This document shows, in pieces, positions 30,067 through 47,164 of a stretch of DNA of 64,000 nucleotides. Every line of letters starts with the position of its first letter. Position 1 is the first letter of the stretch. The DNA lies in NCBI RefSeq assembly GCF_001427905.1, contig NZ_LMEF01000023.1, positions 474,687 through 538,686 on the forward strand, given 5' to 3'. Both the position numbers and the translations under genes were made by a program. The stretch is from Flavobacterium sp. Root420 (GTDB lineage: Bacteria; Bacteroidota; Bacteroidia; Flavobacteriales; Flavobacteriaceae). The notes under the pieces are model-generated. The model searched no databases and was not told the DNA's origin. It saw nothing but the letters and a program-made list of their open reading frames with translations.

Positions 30067-30540
30067 ATGAAACTTTCAGAAATTAAAGAAGTACTAAAAA
30101 CAGTAGAAGCTGTAAATTTTGAATTGCCAAACGGAAATTTTGTTCCAGAATATTTCCATGTAACAGAAGTTGGTTTAATCACAAAAAACTTTATTGACTG
30201 CGGAGGAACTGTAAGAAAAGAAACCGTTGTTAACTTTCAGCTTTGGGATGCTAATGATTATGAGCATAGACTTAAGCCACAAAAACTGATTCATATTATT
30301 GAACTTTCAGAAAAGGTTCTGGGTATTGAAGATTATGAAATTGAAGTTGAATATCAAGATACTACAATTGGTAAATATGACTTAGGGTTTAACGGTAAAA
30401 ACTTCATTCTGCTTAATAAACAGACTGCTTGTCTTGCTCAGAAACAATGCGGAATACCGTCAGATAAATCTAAGGTAAAATTATCACAGTTAAATGCTGA
30501 TAGCTCAAATTCATGCGCACCTGGCTCAGGCTGTTGCTAA
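30067..30540 (+). CDS. DUF6428 family protein
   Basis: 157 residues, recalled as DUF6428, often next to arsenic genes in Bacteroidota. The C-terminus is Cys-rich: QTACLAQKQCG and the tail CAPGSGCC. Such a Cys cluster could bind arsenite or another thiophilic metalloid. The biochemical role is not known. Confidence 0.75.
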   Translation: MKLSEIKEVLKTVEAVNFELPNGNFVPEYFHVTEVGLITKNFIDCGGTVRKETVVNFQLWDANDYEHRLKPQKLIHIIELSEKVLGIEDYEIEVEYQDTTIGKYDLGFNGKNFILLNKQTACLAQKQCGIPSDKSKVKLSQLNADSSNSCAPGSGCC

Positions 30541-30587
30541 TTTCTAAATGACCATTAAAAATCTATTATAAATACCAGACAAAAACT

Positions 30588-31202
30588 ATGTTATTTACTG
30601 ACATTAAAAACACCATTAATTCATTTGATTATAATCAGGTCTCGCAAGAACGCAAAACTATACTACAGCCATTGGTTGATTATATTCAAAACAAAGTTGA
30701 TAATAAACAGAGCATAAGACTAAATTTAATCTGCACACACAATTCCAGAAGAAGTCACTTGTCACAGGTTTGGGCACAGACTGCCGCTGCCAATTATAAC
30801 ATACAAAATGTTTCCTGCTATTCAGGAGGCACAGAGGCTACTGCCCTATTTCCGATGGTAGCCAAAACGCTGCAGCATTCCGGATTTAAAGTTAAAGCTA
30901 TTTCAGAAGGCCAAAACCCGGTTTATTCTATAAAATTTGCATCAAATGAACTCCCGGTTATCGGCTTTTCTAAAGCCTATGATGATGATTTTAATCCTGA
31001 GAGTGAATTTGCTGCTATAATGACCTGCTCACAGGCTGACGTTGGCTGTCCTTTTATTGCAGGTGCGGAAAAACGTATTCCAATAACCTTTGAAGATCCA
31101 AAAGTTTCAGATGGTACATCAGAGCAAAAAAACGTATATCTGGAGCGAAGTCTTCAAATTGGAACTGAAATGTTTTATGTATTCTCACAAATCAAACAAT
31201 AA
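30588..31202 (+). CDS. Arsenate reductase-like low-molecular-weight phosphatase protein
   Basis: 204 residues with [19 protein letters not shown]. Its phosphatase P-loop, C-T-H-N-S-R-R-S, deviates at one residue from C-x5-R-[ST] forms but keeps Cys, Arg and Ser. A second Cys-containing motif ([11 protein letters not shown]) follows near residue 145. It should reduce arsenate for export by the next gene, which begins 2 bases on. Confidence 0.88.
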
Positions 31203-31204
31203 AA

Positions 31205-32284
31205 ATGTCAGCAAATAACTGTGCGCCTGCCATAGGACGCAAGAAACTAGGATTCCCGGATCAATTTTTAACGCTTTGGATCTTCCTGGCTATGGCTCTT
31301 GGTGTAGCAATTGGTTATTTCATACCCTCCAGCGGTAATTTTATTAACTCCTTTTCAAGTGGAACAACCAATATCCCTTTGGCTATAGGACTGATACTTA
31401 TGATGTACCCACCTTTGGCAAAAGTGAAATACGAACAGATGGCGCAAGTTTTTAGAAACACTAAAATTCTAGGAGCTTCACTATTTCTAAATTGGATTGT
31501 CGGTCCTATATTAATGTTTTCTCTGGCTTTGCTTTTTTTAAATGGCTATCCTGAATATATGATCGGCGTGATCCTAATAGGTTTAGCGCGCTGTATCGCC
31601 ATGGTTGTAGTTTGGAATGATTTGGCAGATGGAAACAGGGAATATGCTGCTGGTCTTATTGCCCTTAATAGTATTTTTCAGGTATTACTTTACAGCGTAT
31701 ATGCTTATATTTTTATTACTATTCTTCCACCCTATTTTGGCTATAATGGTTTTGAAGTAAATATCAGTATTGGTCAGATTGCCGAGAGTGTCGGGATATA
31801 TTTAGGAATTCCTTTCGCACTTGGAATCATAAGCCGTTATGCTCTTATTGCATTGAAAGGCTCAGAATGGTTTGAAACTAAATATGTACCTTTTATTTCT
31901 CCTATTACACTAATATCATTGCTTTTTACCATCATTGTGATGTTTAGTCTTAAGGGAAAACTGATTGTTCAAATTCCTATGGATGTTGTACGCATAGCAA
32001 TACCACTTGTAATTTACTTTACTATAATGTTTATCATCAGCTTTTTTGTTGGAAAATACTTCGGAGCTGACTATTCAAAAACAACAGCAATAGCTTTTAC
32101 GGCTACAGGAAACAATTTCGAACTTGCAATTGCTGTAGCGATTAGTGTCTTTGGCATAAACAGTGGTCAGGCATTTGCAGGAGTTATAGGCCCTTTGGTA
32201 GAAGTGCCAGCGCTTATTGCATTAGTTAATGTTGCTTTTTGGTTTCGAAAAAAATATTACGGTTCTCAAACTGTGCAAGAATAA
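31205..32284 (+). CDS. ACR3 family arsenite efflux transporter
   Basis: 359 residues, about ten transmembrane helices, with the ACR3 sequence [18 protein letters not shown], which contains the conserved Cys, and [17 protein letters not shown]. It exports arsenite. Co-transcribed with the arsenate reductase gene (2-base gap), DUF6428 and ArsR. Confidence 0.95.
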
Positions 32285-42647: not shown

Positions 42648-43784
42648 TTAGAATAGTGTCTGATAAAAATTTTCATAATAAATTTCAATCAATAAGTCGG
42701 CTCCATTAGATGATGACAAATCGATTAATCCTATTTCACAAAGTGCATCGATTCTACACGTTTGATCCTTAATTGATTTTAGTTTACCCAGATTTTTATC
42801 AAAAATGGCAATGTTTTCTATAGCATTTTTTACAATTATAATTAATTGTCTAAAATCAGCTTCAGACAACTTGCTTTCTTTTGCATAGTTTTCTAACCTC
42901 GCGCCTTCTCTATAATGAGGATAATTTTCTAATCCCATAAAGGTCAGCATCCAGGCTTTATTATAGCTCCAGATTGTTTTAGTAATTCCTATATAATCGG
43001 CTATTAAATCATCATGCAGATTATTAGCAGCGTGTCCGTATTTTTTGAGCGTATATAAATGGGTAAACTCATGTTCTTTCCGAATCGAAACGGAATAATA
43101 AGTCCAGACATCTTCTGTCAGTCCCAATTGACTTGCTGTAACGTTACTGTACGGTTTTGTGCTTAAAATGATGAATTTGTCTTTGTATAAAGATCTATTA
43201 GACATAATATTATCTGAAAACTTAGTATTCCAATCGCCCAAAGGATTATTTTGCAACCAGTTTTTTTTGATATTATTTAATCTTTTCCGGTTATTAAGGT
43301 CTGTTAACAACACCGCCCCTATTGAAGGCGGAATGGATACCGGATTATTTTTATGTAGTAAAGACTGTAGAATTTTTAAAAAATCTTCTTTATTGGGAAC
43401 GATTAATACCGGAATTCTACCTGCAACACTTTGGTGAAGTTCTAAACTAATGTTTTTTGCATCTTCTAATTTTAGATAAGCTGTTAATTTGATAGTATCG
43501 GTTTTTCCTTTTAAAACAACATTTTTGTACAATTCAATTTTATCTATTTCTTTTTCGATTAGAAAATTCAATTGTGGATAGCATTCTTTTAACAGCGTAA
43601 AAATGTCTTTTTTTTCAGAAGCATTCAGTAAATCTTCCCAGAATTGAATGCCAGTATCATCAGTAGTCGAAACTGCATAAACATCATCTAAAATAAACTT
43701 ATTAAAAAGATAGGCCTTAAGTTCAGGGGATAAACCAATCGACACCTCGTGATCGACTAGTTCTAAAGTAATTAAATTGTTCAT
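42648..43784 (-). CDS. Unknown protein with HEFTH zinc-peptidase-type motif, in the RiPP-type cluster
   Basis: 378 residues, soluble, no signal peptide. A zincin-like motif, RKEHEFTHLYTLKKYG, is at about residues 236-250 (H-E-x-x-H). It is followed by DDLIADYIGI (~258), which could supply the third metal ligand. The rest is not recognised. It lies 5 bases after the stop of a decayed ABC-exporter tail and 151 bases after the NHLP precursor gene, in the same direction. A leader-cleaving protease is a fair guess, not shown. Confidence 0.65.
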   Translation of the reverse strand: MNNLITLELVDHEVSIGLSPELKAYLFNKFILDDVYAVSTTDDTGIQFWEDLLNASEKKDIFTLLKECYPQLNFLIEKEIDKIELYKNVVLKGKTDTIKLTAYLKLEDAKNISLELHQSVAGRIPVLIVPNKEDFLKILQSLLHKNNPVSIPPSIGAVLLTDLNNRKRLNNIKKNWLQNNPLGDWNTKFSDNIMSNRSLYKDKFIILSTKPYSNVTASQLGLTEDVWTYYSVSIRKEHEFTHLYTLKKYGHAANNLHDDLIADYIGITKTIWSYNKAWMLTFMGLENYPHYREGARLENYAKESKLSEADFRQLIIIVKNAIENIAIFDKNLGKLKSIKDQTCRIDALCEIGLIDLSSSNGADLLIEIYYENFYQTLF

Positions 43785-43788
43785 GATT

Positions 43789-43915
43789 TTACGAAATTTG
43801 GCGTTTAGCCAGTTGTGTAAATAAGCCCTCCTGCTGCATTAATTCTTAATAAGTACCTAATTCAACAATTTCTTTTTTGTCCACCCGAAAATGTTTCAGC
43901 ACGATAAACTTCTTG
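43789..43915 (-). pseudogene. Remnant of an ABC exporter ATP-binding domain
   Basis: The minus strand keeps two pieces: QEVYRAETFSGGQKR (the ABC signature region) and, in another frame, KEIVELGTY, then a stop and ELMQQEGLFTQLAKRQIS, which is the usual C-terminus of peptide-exporting ABC transporters. The Walker B and switch regions between them are missing. So an exporter gene existed between the precursor and the HEFTH gene and was lost. Confidence 0.75.
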
Positions 43916-43935
43916 TTTTCAATATTTTAAAAATA

Positions 43936-44274
43936 TTACCTATAAATACCCCGCAACGAATCATACAAACTTTCAAAGTCTGTAACCGCAGATCCTGTTG
44001 AGGTGCCACAGCTAAAATTGTCTATTTTTTTTTCCTCCGGCTCCTGATCTTCTGGCTCCATTTTTATAGGAATATTGATATACAGAAACTCCGGATCAGA
44101 CTGGTCTGTAACCTTTATCTTTTTCCTTGTTGGCAGGCTTCTTCCAAAAAAAATCTCTAATGTTTTTTCGGGATTTTTTATCAATGATTTTTTAAAATCA
44201 TCATTTTCCCAAGCCTCTGCAATTATGCTAAAAAACACATTTTGCCCTTTTTTTTGTTCTTCTGTTAAAATCAT
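43936..44274 (-). CDS. NHLP leader peptide family RiPP precursor
   Basis: 112 residues. The leader (about 1-75) looks like nitrile-hydratase-type NHLP leaders: IIAEAWENDDFKKSLIKNPE, then IKVTDQSDPEFLYINIPIKM. After a polar linker (EPEDQEPEEKK) comes a short core, DNFSCGTSTGSAVTDFESLY..., ending DSLRGIYR. Core modification is likely on Cys, Thr and Ser. A TACTACACTA motif (inverted, 44366-44375) lies about 90 bases upstream. Confidence 0.82.
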   Translation of the reverse strand: MILTEEQKKGQNVFFSIIAEAWENDDFKKSLIKNPEKTLEIFFGRSLPTRKKIKVTDQSDPEFLYINIPIKMEPEDQEPEEKKIDNFSCGTSTGSAVTDFESLYDSLRGIYR

Positions 44275-44365
44275 CTTTTTTACGATTTAAATTTTTATTT
44301 TGATCTGTGCTAAAATCATGCTGTCTATATCGCTATCTGATTAAAATATCAGGAGAAGACCAATC

Positions 44366-44375
44366 TAGTGTAGTA
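44366..44375 (-). promoter_or_regulatory. Shared TACTACACTA motif upstream of the precursor gene
   Basis: TAGTGTAGTA on the + strand is the complement of TACTACACTA, which occurs twice in front of the acyltransferase gene (45198-45207 and 45236-45245). It is a candidate binding site of the LuxR-type regulator encoded at 45470. Confidence 0.5.
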
Positions 44376-44476
44376 CTTCTTATCATCTCATTTATCATTT
44401 GTAGTGGAATTAATGGTTAAATTTAGTACTCCACACAACCTTGTTTTAGAAATTACCTGTTATACTAAAGCCGGTA

Positions 44477-45142
44477 TTAACATACATGATATTCATACTG
44501 TTTGTTTTGAAATGTTTGATTGGACATTTTATTGATAGACTGAGATGTCACCAGTGACTTATTGTTATAATAAAACTCCTCTAAGCCAGCGTAATTCATG
44601 GCTATCGGTATGGTCTCAGAACCCAGGTAATTTATAGAAGCTCCTATGACTTCTGCTTTTATACCAAGGAGGTTCATTATTCTTAAAAGCTTGCTGTCGC
44701 ATTCTGCAAATACGACACCATCTTTTTGTTCGCATATGGGAGCAATTGCGCACACCATTAATTTTCTAAAAAGTGTTTTATCTTTTACATCTTTTTTGGT
44801 AGCAAATCGGCCAATATGCCATACAGGCGAAGCCTTTTGTGAATAATTATAACTTAATGGATCGATATTAAAAATTTTCTGAAGTGGTAATTTTGTTTTA
44901 TAATCCCATTTAATCACCCTGATTGATCCCTGAATGTTTCCTGAAAAATCTTTGGCTACAAAAATTTCAGAATCTTTGAAATAATTTAATTCTTCATCAT
45001 ACACTTCCTGAGTGTCTGAAATGATTTCTTTTGCACTTACATTTTCACAATGATGATTGAAGTTTTCCTCTACTACAAATTTGGCTAATTCTGTAAGTTG
45101 GTTTAATTCTAATCTTTCTAAGTAATTTTGAGTAATTGTCAT
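44477..45142 (-). CDS. GNAT-fold acyltransferase-like protein (autoinducer-synthase/FeeM-like)
   Basis: 221 residues. The pattern DSEIFVAKDFSGNIQGSIRVIK with later PVWHIGRFATKK and LFRKLMVCAIAPICEQKDG fits GNAT/autoinducer synthase or N-acyl amino acid synthase folds. It may acylate the precursor or another small molecule. It is located next to the precursor, and two TACTACACTA motifs lie upstream. Confidence 0.65.
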   Translation of the reverse strand: MTITQNYLERLELNQLTELAKFVVEENFNHHCENVSAKEIISDTQEVYDEELNYFKDSEIFVAKDFSGNIQGSIRVIKWDYKTKLPLQKIFNIDPLSYNYSQKASPVWHIGRFATKKDVKDKTLFRKLMVCAIAPICEQKDGVVFAECDSKLLRIMNLLGIKAEVIGASINYLGSETIPIAMNYAGLEEFYYNNKSLVTSQSINKMSNQTFQNKQYEYHVC

Positions 45143-45197
45143 TGGGGTTTATTTCATTTTGGTTCGTAACAAATCTAATTTTCATATTACTTTATTT

Positions 45198-45247
45198 TAC
45201 TACACTAAATAGTAGTATTTACCTAAAATTCAATAAACTACACTAAA
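45198..45247 (-). promoter_or_regulatory. LuxR-box-like sites before the acyltransferase gene
   Basis: TACTACACTAAATAGTAGTA (45198-45217) has 6-bp arms TACTAC/GTAGTA; ACTACACTAAA recurs at 45237-45247. The same motif appears before the precursor gene. The region is the shared promoter area of the divergent acyltransferase and LuxR genes. Confidence 0.55.
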
Positions 45248-45446
45248 AAAACAGGAACTGCTTTTTGACAATAAAAAAATAGATTAAGAGAAATAAATCC
45301 GATGAAAAAAAACCTGAATTTAATAGCCCGAGAAAATCTTACATTGTTTTTAAATTAAAAACCATTTATAAGGATTTGATAATCAATAAGTATTACTGTT
45401 ATTATACAAGATTGATGTACTTTTTTCATACATAAAAAAAAATGGG

Positions 45447-45454
45447 TAAATTTG
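45447..45454 (+). promoter_or_regulatory. -7 box TAAATTTG of the LuxR-type regulator gene
   Basis: It matches TAnnTTTG 16 bases before the ATG at 45470. No clear -33 is seen. Confidence 0.4.
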
Positions 45455-45469
45455 ATAAAAATTAAGCAG

Positions 45470-46234
45470 ATGAAAGACCAGGATTTGAATTCATTTTTTG
45501 ATTCAAGGAATACGATTTTTAGCTTGACAGATGAAGAAAGAATATATAAATTCGATTATATAGAGCCAATTAAGGCATTTGCAAGAGCAACTTATACCAG
45601 CTTATATGTTATAAATTATTTGGAACAGGGATTTGAATATGTTTCAGATAACCCTTTATTTCTGTGTGGTAATACGCCTCAGCAAGTTTTAGAAATGGGT
45701 TATGCTTTTTATTTTAAGCATGTTCCTCAATCTGATATAGAATTATTGCTTAAAATTAATTCAGTGGGGTTTGATTTTTACGATAAAACACCAATAGAGG
45801 ATCGAATTCTGTACACCATCTCGTATGATTTTCATTTAAAAAACCAGGAAGGAAAATTGATTTTAATCAATCAAAAACTTACTCCTGTTTTTTTAACCAG
45901 TACCGGAAAAATATGGAAAGCAATATGTATTATTTCATTATCGTCTGAACGCAAAGCCGGTAATATTAAAATACATAAAAACGGAGAAAATATGGTTCAT
46001 AATTATAATCTCAAGCTTGACCGATGGGAAGACTCCAAGAAAATAGCTTTGTCTAAAAGAGAAAAAGAAATTTTACAGCTTTCAACACGCGGTTTTACTA
46101 TAAATGAAATTGCCGAAGAAATATTTATTTCGCCAGATACTGTAAAATTTCACAGGCGAAAACTTTTTGAGAAATTAGACGTAACCAATATTTCAGAAGC
46201 CATTGCTTTTGCTACTAGTAATAAACTGATTTAA
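45470..46234 (+). CDS. LuxR-type regulator with PAS-like sensor domain
   Basis: 254 residues from ATG 45470 (a TTG at 45452 lies inside the -7 box). N-terminal PAS-like domain (about 20-160), C-terminal LuxR helix-turn-helix: LSKREKEILQLSTRGFTINEIAEEIFISPDTVKFHRRKLFEKLDV (about 190-240). It is divergent from the acyltransferase gene and likely the local regulator of the RiPP-type cluster. Confidence 0.88.
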   Translation: MKDQDLNSFFDSRNTIFSLTDEERIYKFDYIEPIKAFARATYTSLYVINYLEQGFEYVSDNPLFLCGNTPQQVLEMGYAFYFKHVPQSDIELLLKINSVGFDFYDKTPIEDRILYTISYDFHLKNQEGKLILINQKLTPVFLTSTGKIWKAICIISLSSERKAGNIKIHKNGENMVHNYNLKLDRWEDSKKIALSKREKEILQLSTRGFTINEIAEEIFISPDTVKFHRRKLFEKLDVTNISEAIAFATSNKLI

Positions 46235-46323
46235 TGCTGTCTGGCATTTTTTTGTAAAAAATTTTAAGGCAATTGTATCTTTTGTAAAGGTGTATATTCC
46301 TTCATTTTTTCTGCTATAACAAA

Positions 46324-46360
46324 AAAGCTGCATTCAAAATCAAATTTTGAATGCAGCTTT
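46324..46360. terminator. Bidirectional terminator between LuxR and ThiF genes
   Basis: AAAGCTGCATTCAAAAT pairs with ATTTTGAATGCAGCTTT with a 3-base loop; it ends both convergent genes. Confidence 0.9.
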
Positions 46361-46417
46361 TAAAGAAATTATTTTATAAAGAATCACAAATCTAAATAGG
46401 CAGATCTCTCAAATGGT

Positions 46418-47164
46418 CTATTTGATACTAGTCAAATAAAATTCCGGAAATACTTTTATACGGTTATTAACCGCGATATCAAATGCAATATTGGTACACA
46501 AACCAGCAACTAGCCAAGATGCAATAGAAAGCTGCGGAGGAGAAAGATTTTTGTCTTCTTTTATATATTCGTCCAAGACTTTTTCCAGCCATTCCTGAGG
46601 ATTTTCCCAATATTGCATATATTCTAAAACATAATTGACAACATTGATTTCGGTAAATTTTTCACCTGATTTCTTTAGGGCATCTAATCCTTCTTCTTCT
46701 GAAATTACCAGTACCAATGCGCCCCATCCTAAATTATACGGATGTAGTACCGGAATCTTTCTACTTTGACATATAGAATCGAACAAAAGCGGCACATCTG
46801 AAGTAAAGTCCAAAGCGTTGATCGCAATTTTATGATCTTTTATGTATTCTTCAACATTTTCCGGAGTTAAAAAACAATTATAAGTCGTGATTTTTGCCTC
46901 ATTATTAATAGAAAGCAATCTTTCCTTAAGTGCTTCTACTTTAGGTTTAGAGATATCTTTTTCAGTATAGTTTTGTCTGTTTAAATTGGATAATTCGACA
47001 ACATCGCCATCAATTATGGTAAGGGTTTCAAAACCCAATCTCAGTAAACATTCTGCAATTACACTCCCGATACCTGCTCCGCCTAATAGTATGGGTGTGT
47101 TTTTGATTATTTCTTGTTGTTGAGGGGTAATATAAATTCTATTTCTAATATTCCTTTGATCCAT
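46418..47164 (-). CDS. ThiF/E1-like adenylyltransferase
   Basis: 248 residues. ATP-binding GGAGIGSVIAECLLRLG (about 29-45), IDGDVVELSNLNRQ (D...N-x-N-R-Q), ALDFTSDVP with the catalytic-type Asp. It lacks the paired CxxC zinc ligands and an obvious catalytic Cys. Such enzymes activate a carboxyl as acyl-adenylate and are known in peptide-modifying systems. It is in the same cluster as the precursor, with no ubiquitin-like partner visible. Confidence 0.88.
   Translation of the reverse strand: MDQRNIRNRIYITPQQQEIIKNTPILLGGAGIGSVIAECLLRLGFETLTIIDGDVVELSNLNRQNYTEKDISKPKVEALKERLLSINNEAKITTYNCFLTPENVEEYIKDHKIAINALDFTSDVPLLFDSICQSRKIPVLHPYNLGWGALVLVISEEEGLDALKKSGEKFTEINVVNYVLEYMQYWENPQEWLEKVLDEYIKEDKNLSPPQLSIASWLVAGLCTNIAFDIAVNNRIKVFPEFYLTSIK

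Follow-up and report, generated by a model that had tools for sequence, protein, structure and literature searches.

Genes and features at the locus

We analyzed a 64,000-nucleotide stretch of DNA from Flavobacterium sp. Root420 (contig NZ_LMEF01000023.1; hereafter, the window), in which a reading made from the sequence alone had proposed a five-gene cluster for a ribosomally synthesized and post-translationally modified peptide (RiPP), and all five open reading frames are present in the window where that reading had placed them. Four lie on the minus strand: a ThiF-like (E1-type) adenylyltransferase gene (46418..47164; PF00899, E = 2.2e-34), which belongs to the cassette described below; a FeeM/autoinducer-synthase-like GNAT acyltransferase gene (44477..45142; FeeM, E = 0.0027, and TIGR03694, E = 2.1e-5, both under the cut-off); an NHLP gene whose Gly-Gly site is altered to FSCG (43936..44274; TIGR03793, E = 1.4e-11, with 44.1 bits against a curated cut-off of 50.9 and hence under threshold); and the gene for a 378-residue DUF7005 protein with the motif HEFTH (42648..43784; PF22541, E = 2.8e-112). 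The fifth, a LuxR-type regulator gene (45470..46234; GerE, E = 3.8e-18, scanned from an alternative start at 45452, an upstream TTG that is also open), lies on the plus strand, divergent from the GNAT gene, so that the five genes do not form one operon. The protein identities proposed by the sequence-only reading are confirmed by profile matches, weakly so for the GNAT, and its view that the five genes belong together, that the precursor is NHLP-type and that the setting is RiPP-related holds as well.

Upstream of the GNAT gene lies a lux-box-like palindrome, ACTACTATTTAGTGTAGT as read on the minus strand (45199..45216), which is the sole match in the genome at up to 3 mismatches. A degenerate distal box, of which the AGTGTAGT half alone remains, lies 38 bp upstream of this proximal box (45237..45254, coordinates deduced from the 38-bp spacing), at a position where many relatives have a full second box. 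Two gene scars are also found on the minus strand: the first 19 codons of an AraC-type regulator between GNAT and NHLP (44342..44398; tblastn E = 1.9e-7, 95% identity), and, between NHLP and DUF7005, the final 33 codons of ABC2, the NHLM exporter gene, interrupted by a stop (43792..43890; tblastn E = 3.6e-9, 73% identity). We favor, at a probability of roughly 0.58, the reading that two systems are joined here, an acyl-signal-like regulatory cassette and the remnant of a lanthipeptide-type island.

DUF7005 islands and their reduced forms

Searches of overlapping genome draws detected DUF7005 in 12 of 395 genomes sampled from the order, in 12 of 395 sampled from the phylum and in 16 of 398 sampled from the genus. 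Its named relatives at 73 to 83% identity are 8 loci, seven from records named as Flavobacterium and one from a Flavobacteriaceae record. The sequence-only reading had tied both its HEFTH and its ThiF gene to NHLP precursors, and for DUF7005 this setting is borne out, since the protein tracks the NHLM exporter: among 33 mapped loci, exporter genes (C39/NHLM) are in view in 23, seven are the remnants described below, and at three (L057 to L059, two of them contigs under 10 kb) none was seen. The exporter row mostly runs TolC, HlyD, ABC1 and ABC2 immediately before DUF7005, except that L061 has its exporter genes on the other strand and L062 shows the ABC part alone. At L055 the row comprises a TolC-type protein, TIGR03794, TIGR03796 (which includes a C39 peptidase domain) and TIGR03797; an NHLP precursor and a cNMP-binding protein come before it. 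DUF7005 is also found in a distant family of the phylum (L057 to L062), where the proteins are 32 to 36% identical to that of the window and three of the six loci (L060, L061 and L062) show exporter-like genes.

Further upstream, in 19 regions, most islands carry an NHLP array together with a roughly 650-residue protein (of the TPR/nucleotide-cyclase kind in those tested), and many also carry ThiF, a LanM-like protein and LuxR and GNAT as a divergent pair. Of the 932 positions of TIGR03897, the three LanM-like proteins tested match just 1 to 519, approximately, that is, the dehydratase half. Such proteins occur at L088, L076 and L074, in islands that have NHLP arrays and, in the tested cases, also the TPR/nucleotide-cyclase and cNMP-binding proteins. 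The intact island of genome G748 runs ThiF, NHLP, cyclase, four NHLPs, LanM half, LuxR (reverse), GNAT, AraC, NHLP, CRP, TolC, HlyD, ABC1, ABC2 and DUF7005, and in intact islands generally the box precedes the co-directional row from GNAT through AraC, NHLP, CRP and the exporter genes to DUF7005. These parent islands share Gly-Gly NHLP arrays, a LanM dehydratase and an NHLM exporter with the NHLP-leader/class II lanthipeptide clusters described in PMC2887384; they differ in the half-length LanM match, and the window differs further in having lost LanM, the exporter and the Gly-Gly site.

In 22 aligned sequences from the 33 loci, the HExxH motif (H238/E239/H242 in the window protein), D258, A262 and D263 are invariant columns. 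DUF7005 is a probable metalloenzyme, which could act as an iron-dependent hydroxylase or as a peptidase; both activities are attributed to PflC, a HEXXH enzyme of a RiPP cluster, in PMC12636437. The DUF7005 profile found no credible relative among solved structures in the PDB (all hits at E ≥ 1.5).

The gene order of the window, ThiF, LuxR (reverse), GNAT, NHLP and DUF7005, recurs in six further genomes (G1034, G961, G929, G944, G818 and G755), and order and strands match the intact G748 island minus the missing blocks. An ABC2 match over the cut-off was found in none of these seven remnant genomes, compared with five of the five intact genomes tested, and each remnant genome has a single NHLP, compared with six to nine in five intact ones (12 genomes in both the exporter and the NHLP search). 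A search of 27 genomes for DUF4135, the LanM dehydratase domain, found it in none of the seven remnant genomes and in 16 of the 20 others (not in G231, G226, G959 and G072), so that the absence of LanM claimed by the sequence-only reading is right for the window genome (no DUF4135 at E ≤ 0.001) and wrong for most of its relatives. The scars stand where intact islands have the corresponding genes, the AraC scar occupying the position of the AraC gene. By sequence comparison, NHLP and DUF7005 are relics of a larger lanthipeptide-type island, with NHLP array, LanM dehydratase half and NHLM exporter, that is still intact in related Flavobacterium.

In a tree built on four concatenated proteins, with 17 islands represented (G915 omitted, being without full ThiF and GNAT), the window and G1034 group with the intact G748 island and the other five remnants form a separate group, both with 100/100 support. 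Forcing the seven remnants into one clade costs 60.4 log units (approximately unbiased test, P = 4.7e-6); this tree calls for two changes, as if the island had been reduced twice, and the deletion joints look different between the two remnant groups. The gyrB tree places the window and G1034 with G929, G944 and G961, and G818 with G755 apart from them; this disagreement with the island tree indicates that islands were exchanged or recombined between species.

The sequence-only reading had taken a CGTSTG stretch of the NHLP protein for the core peptide, yet the same position is occupied by the Gly-Gly site in intact sister islands. Where intact precursors read DTVSGGSSNGTG (G362) and DNCGGGTSANTV (G748), the remnants read DNFSCGTSTGSA (window) and DNCSGSTSNGSA (G1034), with Gly-Gly replaced by FSCG and CSGS, respectively, and the other five remnants have no such stretch in frame. 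Their NHLP frame stops after a poly-A run of about ten A's (KKKAN), with the old tail out of frame behind it and, in G818, additionally carrying an internal stop; this frame end was located in L020, L022, L024, L025 and L026. Slippage at the poly-A run that would restore the tail was considered and rejected because of the G818 stop. NHLP C-terminal ends differ between lineages (IYR, GL and KKKAN), a poor fit to an enzyme that reads this C-terminus, and a role of ThiF in reading it was likewise rejected as the C-terminus is not conserved.

The five genes are constrained by more than chance would allow, as estimated from pairwise dN/dS (the ratio of nonsynonymous to synonymous substitution rates) between remnant genomes: 0.03 to 0.21 for ThiF, LuxR, GNAT and DUF7005, and, for the leader part of NHLP, 0.07 to 0.12 in three pairs within the group of five and 0.25, on 14 changes, for the window and G1034. 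We therefore consider it very improbable that the five genes are decaying leftovers on their way to being lost, as the scars, the mutated Gly-Gly site, the degenerate distal box and the lost exporter might suggest; the dN/dS range of 0.03 to 0.25 and the retention of the same five genes in two island clades both oppose this. This and the alternatives that follow are not mutually exclusive, some concerning the NHLP half and others the cassette, and their odds need not sum to one.

A working RiPP pathway, in which DUF7005, GNAT and ThiF modify the NHLP tail, was the view of the sequence-only reading, and we presume such a pathway would resemble those of selidamide or microcin C. The five genes are indeed contiguous and constrained, and the window tail stays in frame and shares its TDFESLYDSLRGIYR ending with intact precursors; its dN/dS against G748 is 0.09 (0.15 for G1034), values that come from near-saturated sites. 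The pfl cluster (PMC12636437) similarly pairs a GNAT and a HEXXH enzyme with an NHLP-type precursor that has no typical Gly-Gly. However, five of the seven remnants have the old core out of frame, G1034 has it clipped, no dedicated exporter scores over the cut-off, and the in-frame stretch behind the leader gives dN/dS of 0.48, 0.53, 0.81 and 0.85 in four of five remnant pairs, the fifth being undefined for want of a synonymous change, all on few sites. Since the GNAT also occurs mostly with no NHLP in view, as described below, we judge a working pathway quite unlikely. C-terminal adenylation of the peptide, the chemistry that had been proposed on the CGTSTG core, is not supported, given the out-of-frame cores and the variable NHLP ends, and the earlier interpretation as a whole is partly supported.

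A portable cassette and its palindromic box

A GNAT profile match was found in 25 of 395 genomes of the order, 10 of them with and 15 without a detected DUF7005. In the latter 15, LuxR is divergent from GNAT throughout and ThiF lies beyond LuxR in 13, the exceptions being L254 and L261, whereas no NHLP lies within the 10.8 to 19 kb in view around GNAT in 14 of the 15; here the supposed tie of ThiF to NHLP precursors is not borne out. The one NHLP, at L255 in genome G212, has 84 residues and no core; this gene (L255:9963-10217) stands behind GNAT and perhaps marks a third reduced island. The divergent GNAT-LuxR arrangement is found in 17 of 18 mapped islands. ThiF and full-length GNAT are both present (17) or both absent (9) in all 26 DUF7005 genomes, which are related and hence not 26 independent cases; G072 has its ThiF and GNAT away from the island, and G915 keeps fragments of both.

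Further cassettes stand away from the island at L222 and L224, in G306 and G072, and L225 has GNAT and ThiF without a LuxR match. G306, in addition to two other cassettes, has a broken one (L223:8349-9876), with ThiF in two pieces and a stop in the GNAT match. A tblastn search found no match to the GNAT on plasmids. The neighboring cargo varies: the L222 neighborhood includes a radical SAM protein and a short open reading frame, and large neighbors of 739 to 803 residues were OMP_b-brl_3 outer-membrane proteins in five of the five loci tested (L222, L251, L255, L256 and L261). By eye, neighbors at L253 and L259 start like C39 exporters. We conclude that ThiF, LuxR and GNAT are a portable cassette found with varied neighboring cargo.

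Conversely, seven islands without the cassette (G226, G845, G1027, G1112, G959, G1058 and G825) carry a gene of 626 to 695 residues and one of 220 residues before AraC, and in G226 (L077) this pair is histidine-kinase- and response-regulator-like. In G845, where the two genes encode 684 and 220 residues, a 44-residue LuxR fragment persists (L081:6310-6441, 84% identity). Together, the pair and the fragment make the regulatory part of the island look exchangeable.

The LuxR-GNAT gap contains, ahead of GNAT, an 18-bp palindrome, ACTACACnnnnGTGTAGT. In 34 cassettes (17 islands, the 15 loci without DUF7005, L222 and L224, with the broken L223 and the LuxR-less L225 outside the set), the best site has at most 3 mismatches of 14 in 33, compared with a mean of 0.34 cassettes in 50 mononucleotide shuffles (largest value, 2). 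The center of the proximal box mostly lies 53 to 58 bp before GNAT, and the distal box usually lies 38 bp further upstream (28 bp in L256 to L258). Using a threshold of at least 13 bits, at which about 4.6 sites per Mb are expected in shuffled sequence, we also find sites 42 to 65 bp before 13 of 32 cassette ThiF genes and, at 10 of 17 loci outside islands, within 300 bp before the gene that follows GNAT. In six of these loci (L222, L251, L252, L256, L257 and L258) the box lies 56 to 63 bp before that gene, and at L261 such a box stands before a gene on the LuxR side. What is seen directly is how the genes are arranged, the palindrome with its nearly constant spacing from the GNAT and ThiF starts, and the variety of the cargo.

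Genome-wide, 11 cassette genomes together contain 20 sites with at most 2 mismatches, of which 19 lie at cassette genes, while G1034 and G748 have weaker sites alone; 11 genomes of the same genus with no GNAT match have one such site in total (G128). The window genome has one match at up to 3 mismatches, at 45199-45216, against 17 for a reversed control pattern, which indicates that the box is not a common sequence. The twentieth site, in G212, lies before a copied GNAT start ahead of a nonribosomal peptide synthetase (NRPS) gene with AMP-binding, condensation and luciferase-like domains. There, about 29 kb from the cassette, the box pair and the first GNAT codons have been copied before the NRPS gene (L295:7752-8060), an apparent promoter capture.

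This copying, as expected of a regulator's output, and the occurrence of the same boxes before changing cargo both count against the idea that ThiF and GNAT make a metabolite that is not a signal, with LuxR merely regulating its synthesis. ThiF-type enzymes do serve cofactor synthesis, and the frequent outer-membrane beta-barrel/TonB-like neighbors (all five large ones tested) are what one would expect for an imported metabolite; on balance we hold this explanation to be unlikely.

A possible acyl-signal circuit

The cassette is best read as an acyl-signal circuit of the LuxI/LuxR kind to which an E1-like enzyme has been added, a reading in which the signal itself is inferred. FeeM-type enzymes attach fatty acyl groups to amino acids, ThiF-type enzymes adenylate carboxylates, and LuxI/LuxR constitute acyl-homoserine-lactone quorum sensing. 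The GNAT (FeeM/LuxI-like) would make an N-acyl amino acid and ThiF would activate its carboxylate, for instance to close a lactone or thiolactone, so that the simplest joint product would be an activated or cyclized N-acyl amino acid. LuxR would bind this product and turn on promoters with the 18-bp palindrome, that of GNAT above all, which would give positive feedback as in quorum sensing. It is from the anatomy of the loci that we infer the signal molecule, the order of the two enzymes, the binding by LuxR and the exit of the signal from the cell. The LuxR of the window is 49 to 83% identical to 15 LuxRs of other cassettes (alignments of 17 GNATs, 16 LuxRs and 15 ThiFs were used), a degree of conservation that looks as if they bound a common ligand.

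More specifically, we tentatively propose, at somewhat less than even odds, a new class of quorum sensing in Flavobacteriales, in which a FeeM-like enzyme makes an N-acyl amino acid, ThiF activates it and LuxR answers through ACTACACnnnnGTGTAGT boxes, often in tandem. As part of the same proposal, such cassettes would accompany peptide clusters of lanthipeptide-type, radical-SAM and other kinds, and their promoter, once copied, would also precede an NRPS gene. In the two-system reading, deletions in the remnants have left GNAT, NHLP and DUF7005 behind the box promoter with a precursor that has lost its cleavage site, and the retained NHLP leader is probably an intracellular protein partner of DUF7005, no longer the precursor of an exported peptide; this last is the weakest step of the explanation.

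The cassette resembles LuxI/LuxR systems in that an acyltransferase of the autoinducer-synthase/GNAT superfamily is divergent from a LuxR-type gene and a palindromic box precedes the synthase gene. It differs in the added ThiF enzyme, in its hosts, which here are Flavobacteriales, in a window LuxR that matched no autoinducer-binding Pfam model in a Pfam scan, and in a synthase that matches FeeM better than Autoind_synth. FeeM is matched by 13 of 17 members of the GNAT family at E ≤ 1 (best E = 2.6e-10) and Autoind_synth by one (E = 0.01); the window protein shows weak FeeM and exosortase-acyltransferase similarity. The FeeM N-acyl amino acid synthases are thus the nearest Pfam family, with the window protein below the Pfam cut-off, and we know of no pairing of FeeM with LuxR and ThiF.

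The ThiF has solved homologues, 9EGB, 9EGC and 9EGD (E of about 1e-106), evidence that others have worked on this family; no paper with these codes was found in the open-access literature. The ThiF fold is shared with the RiPP adenylyltransferases of the microcin C, pantocin A, GRC and enterofaecin types, as treated in the review PMC12250964, which connects quorum-sensing genes with some of these clusters and reports a thiolactone made by ThiF; the terms "LuxR" and "Bacteroid" do not occur in its main text. Unlike those clusters, the cassette ThiF usually has no NHLP in view (14 of 15 loci), a comparison confined to this precursor type, as others were not searched for. The gene set was not described in the titles or abstract beginnings of the open-access literature found.

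Several observations weigh against the two-system reading and the circuit within it. Two of the 15 loci without DUF7005 have no neighboring ThiF, so that ThiF may be dispensable, and G306 is the sole cassette of the 34 whose best site exceeds 3 mismatches, with 4. A ThiF-side site of at least 13 bits is found in only the 13 of 32 cassettes, and in no Flavobacterium island, the window included (the upstream sequence of G261 is short). Of its two boxes, the window has only one intact, and a relaxed 16-bp pattern is no commoner within the window than chance predicts (8 against 9.0 expected), so that the weight lies on conservation between cassettes. The FeeM match of the window GNAT is, taken alone, weak (E = 0.0027), and GNAT profiles found one hit among solved structures at E = 0.15 in one search and none at E ≤ 1 in another. 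AlphaFold models were unusable for both GNAT (6 close sequences; mean pLDDT, the predicted local distance difference test score, 48) and DUF7005 (9 close sequences; mean 33). As for the remnants, a single loss combined with a single regain would also cost two changes, and island exchange could imitate two losses.

A circuit of this kind need not involve secretion. The GNAT/ThiF product could be a LuxR ligand kept within one cell, an internal switch that the gene arrangement and the boxes fit equally well. What would speak against a switch is analogy alone: acyl lactones and acyl amino acids tend to be membrane-permeant, and clusters of the antibiotic-like kind often respond to density. On this footing, we regard the internal switch as rather unlikely.

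To our knowledge, no LuxI-type signal is established for the phylum, which, if the signaling proposal is true, would gain an acyl-signal circuit of its own that uses ubiquitin-activating-type chemistry. The box would then also offer a simple handle for locating silent antibiotic-like clusters and activating them. In the remnant islands, nature has performed a deletion experiment that shows which genes outlast the peptide product, and one is led to ask what function an NHLP leader has once its core is gone. Elsewhere in the window, at 30067-32284, an arsenic-resistance-like set (phosphatase-like and ACR3-like) was recognized by eye from the list of open reading frames.

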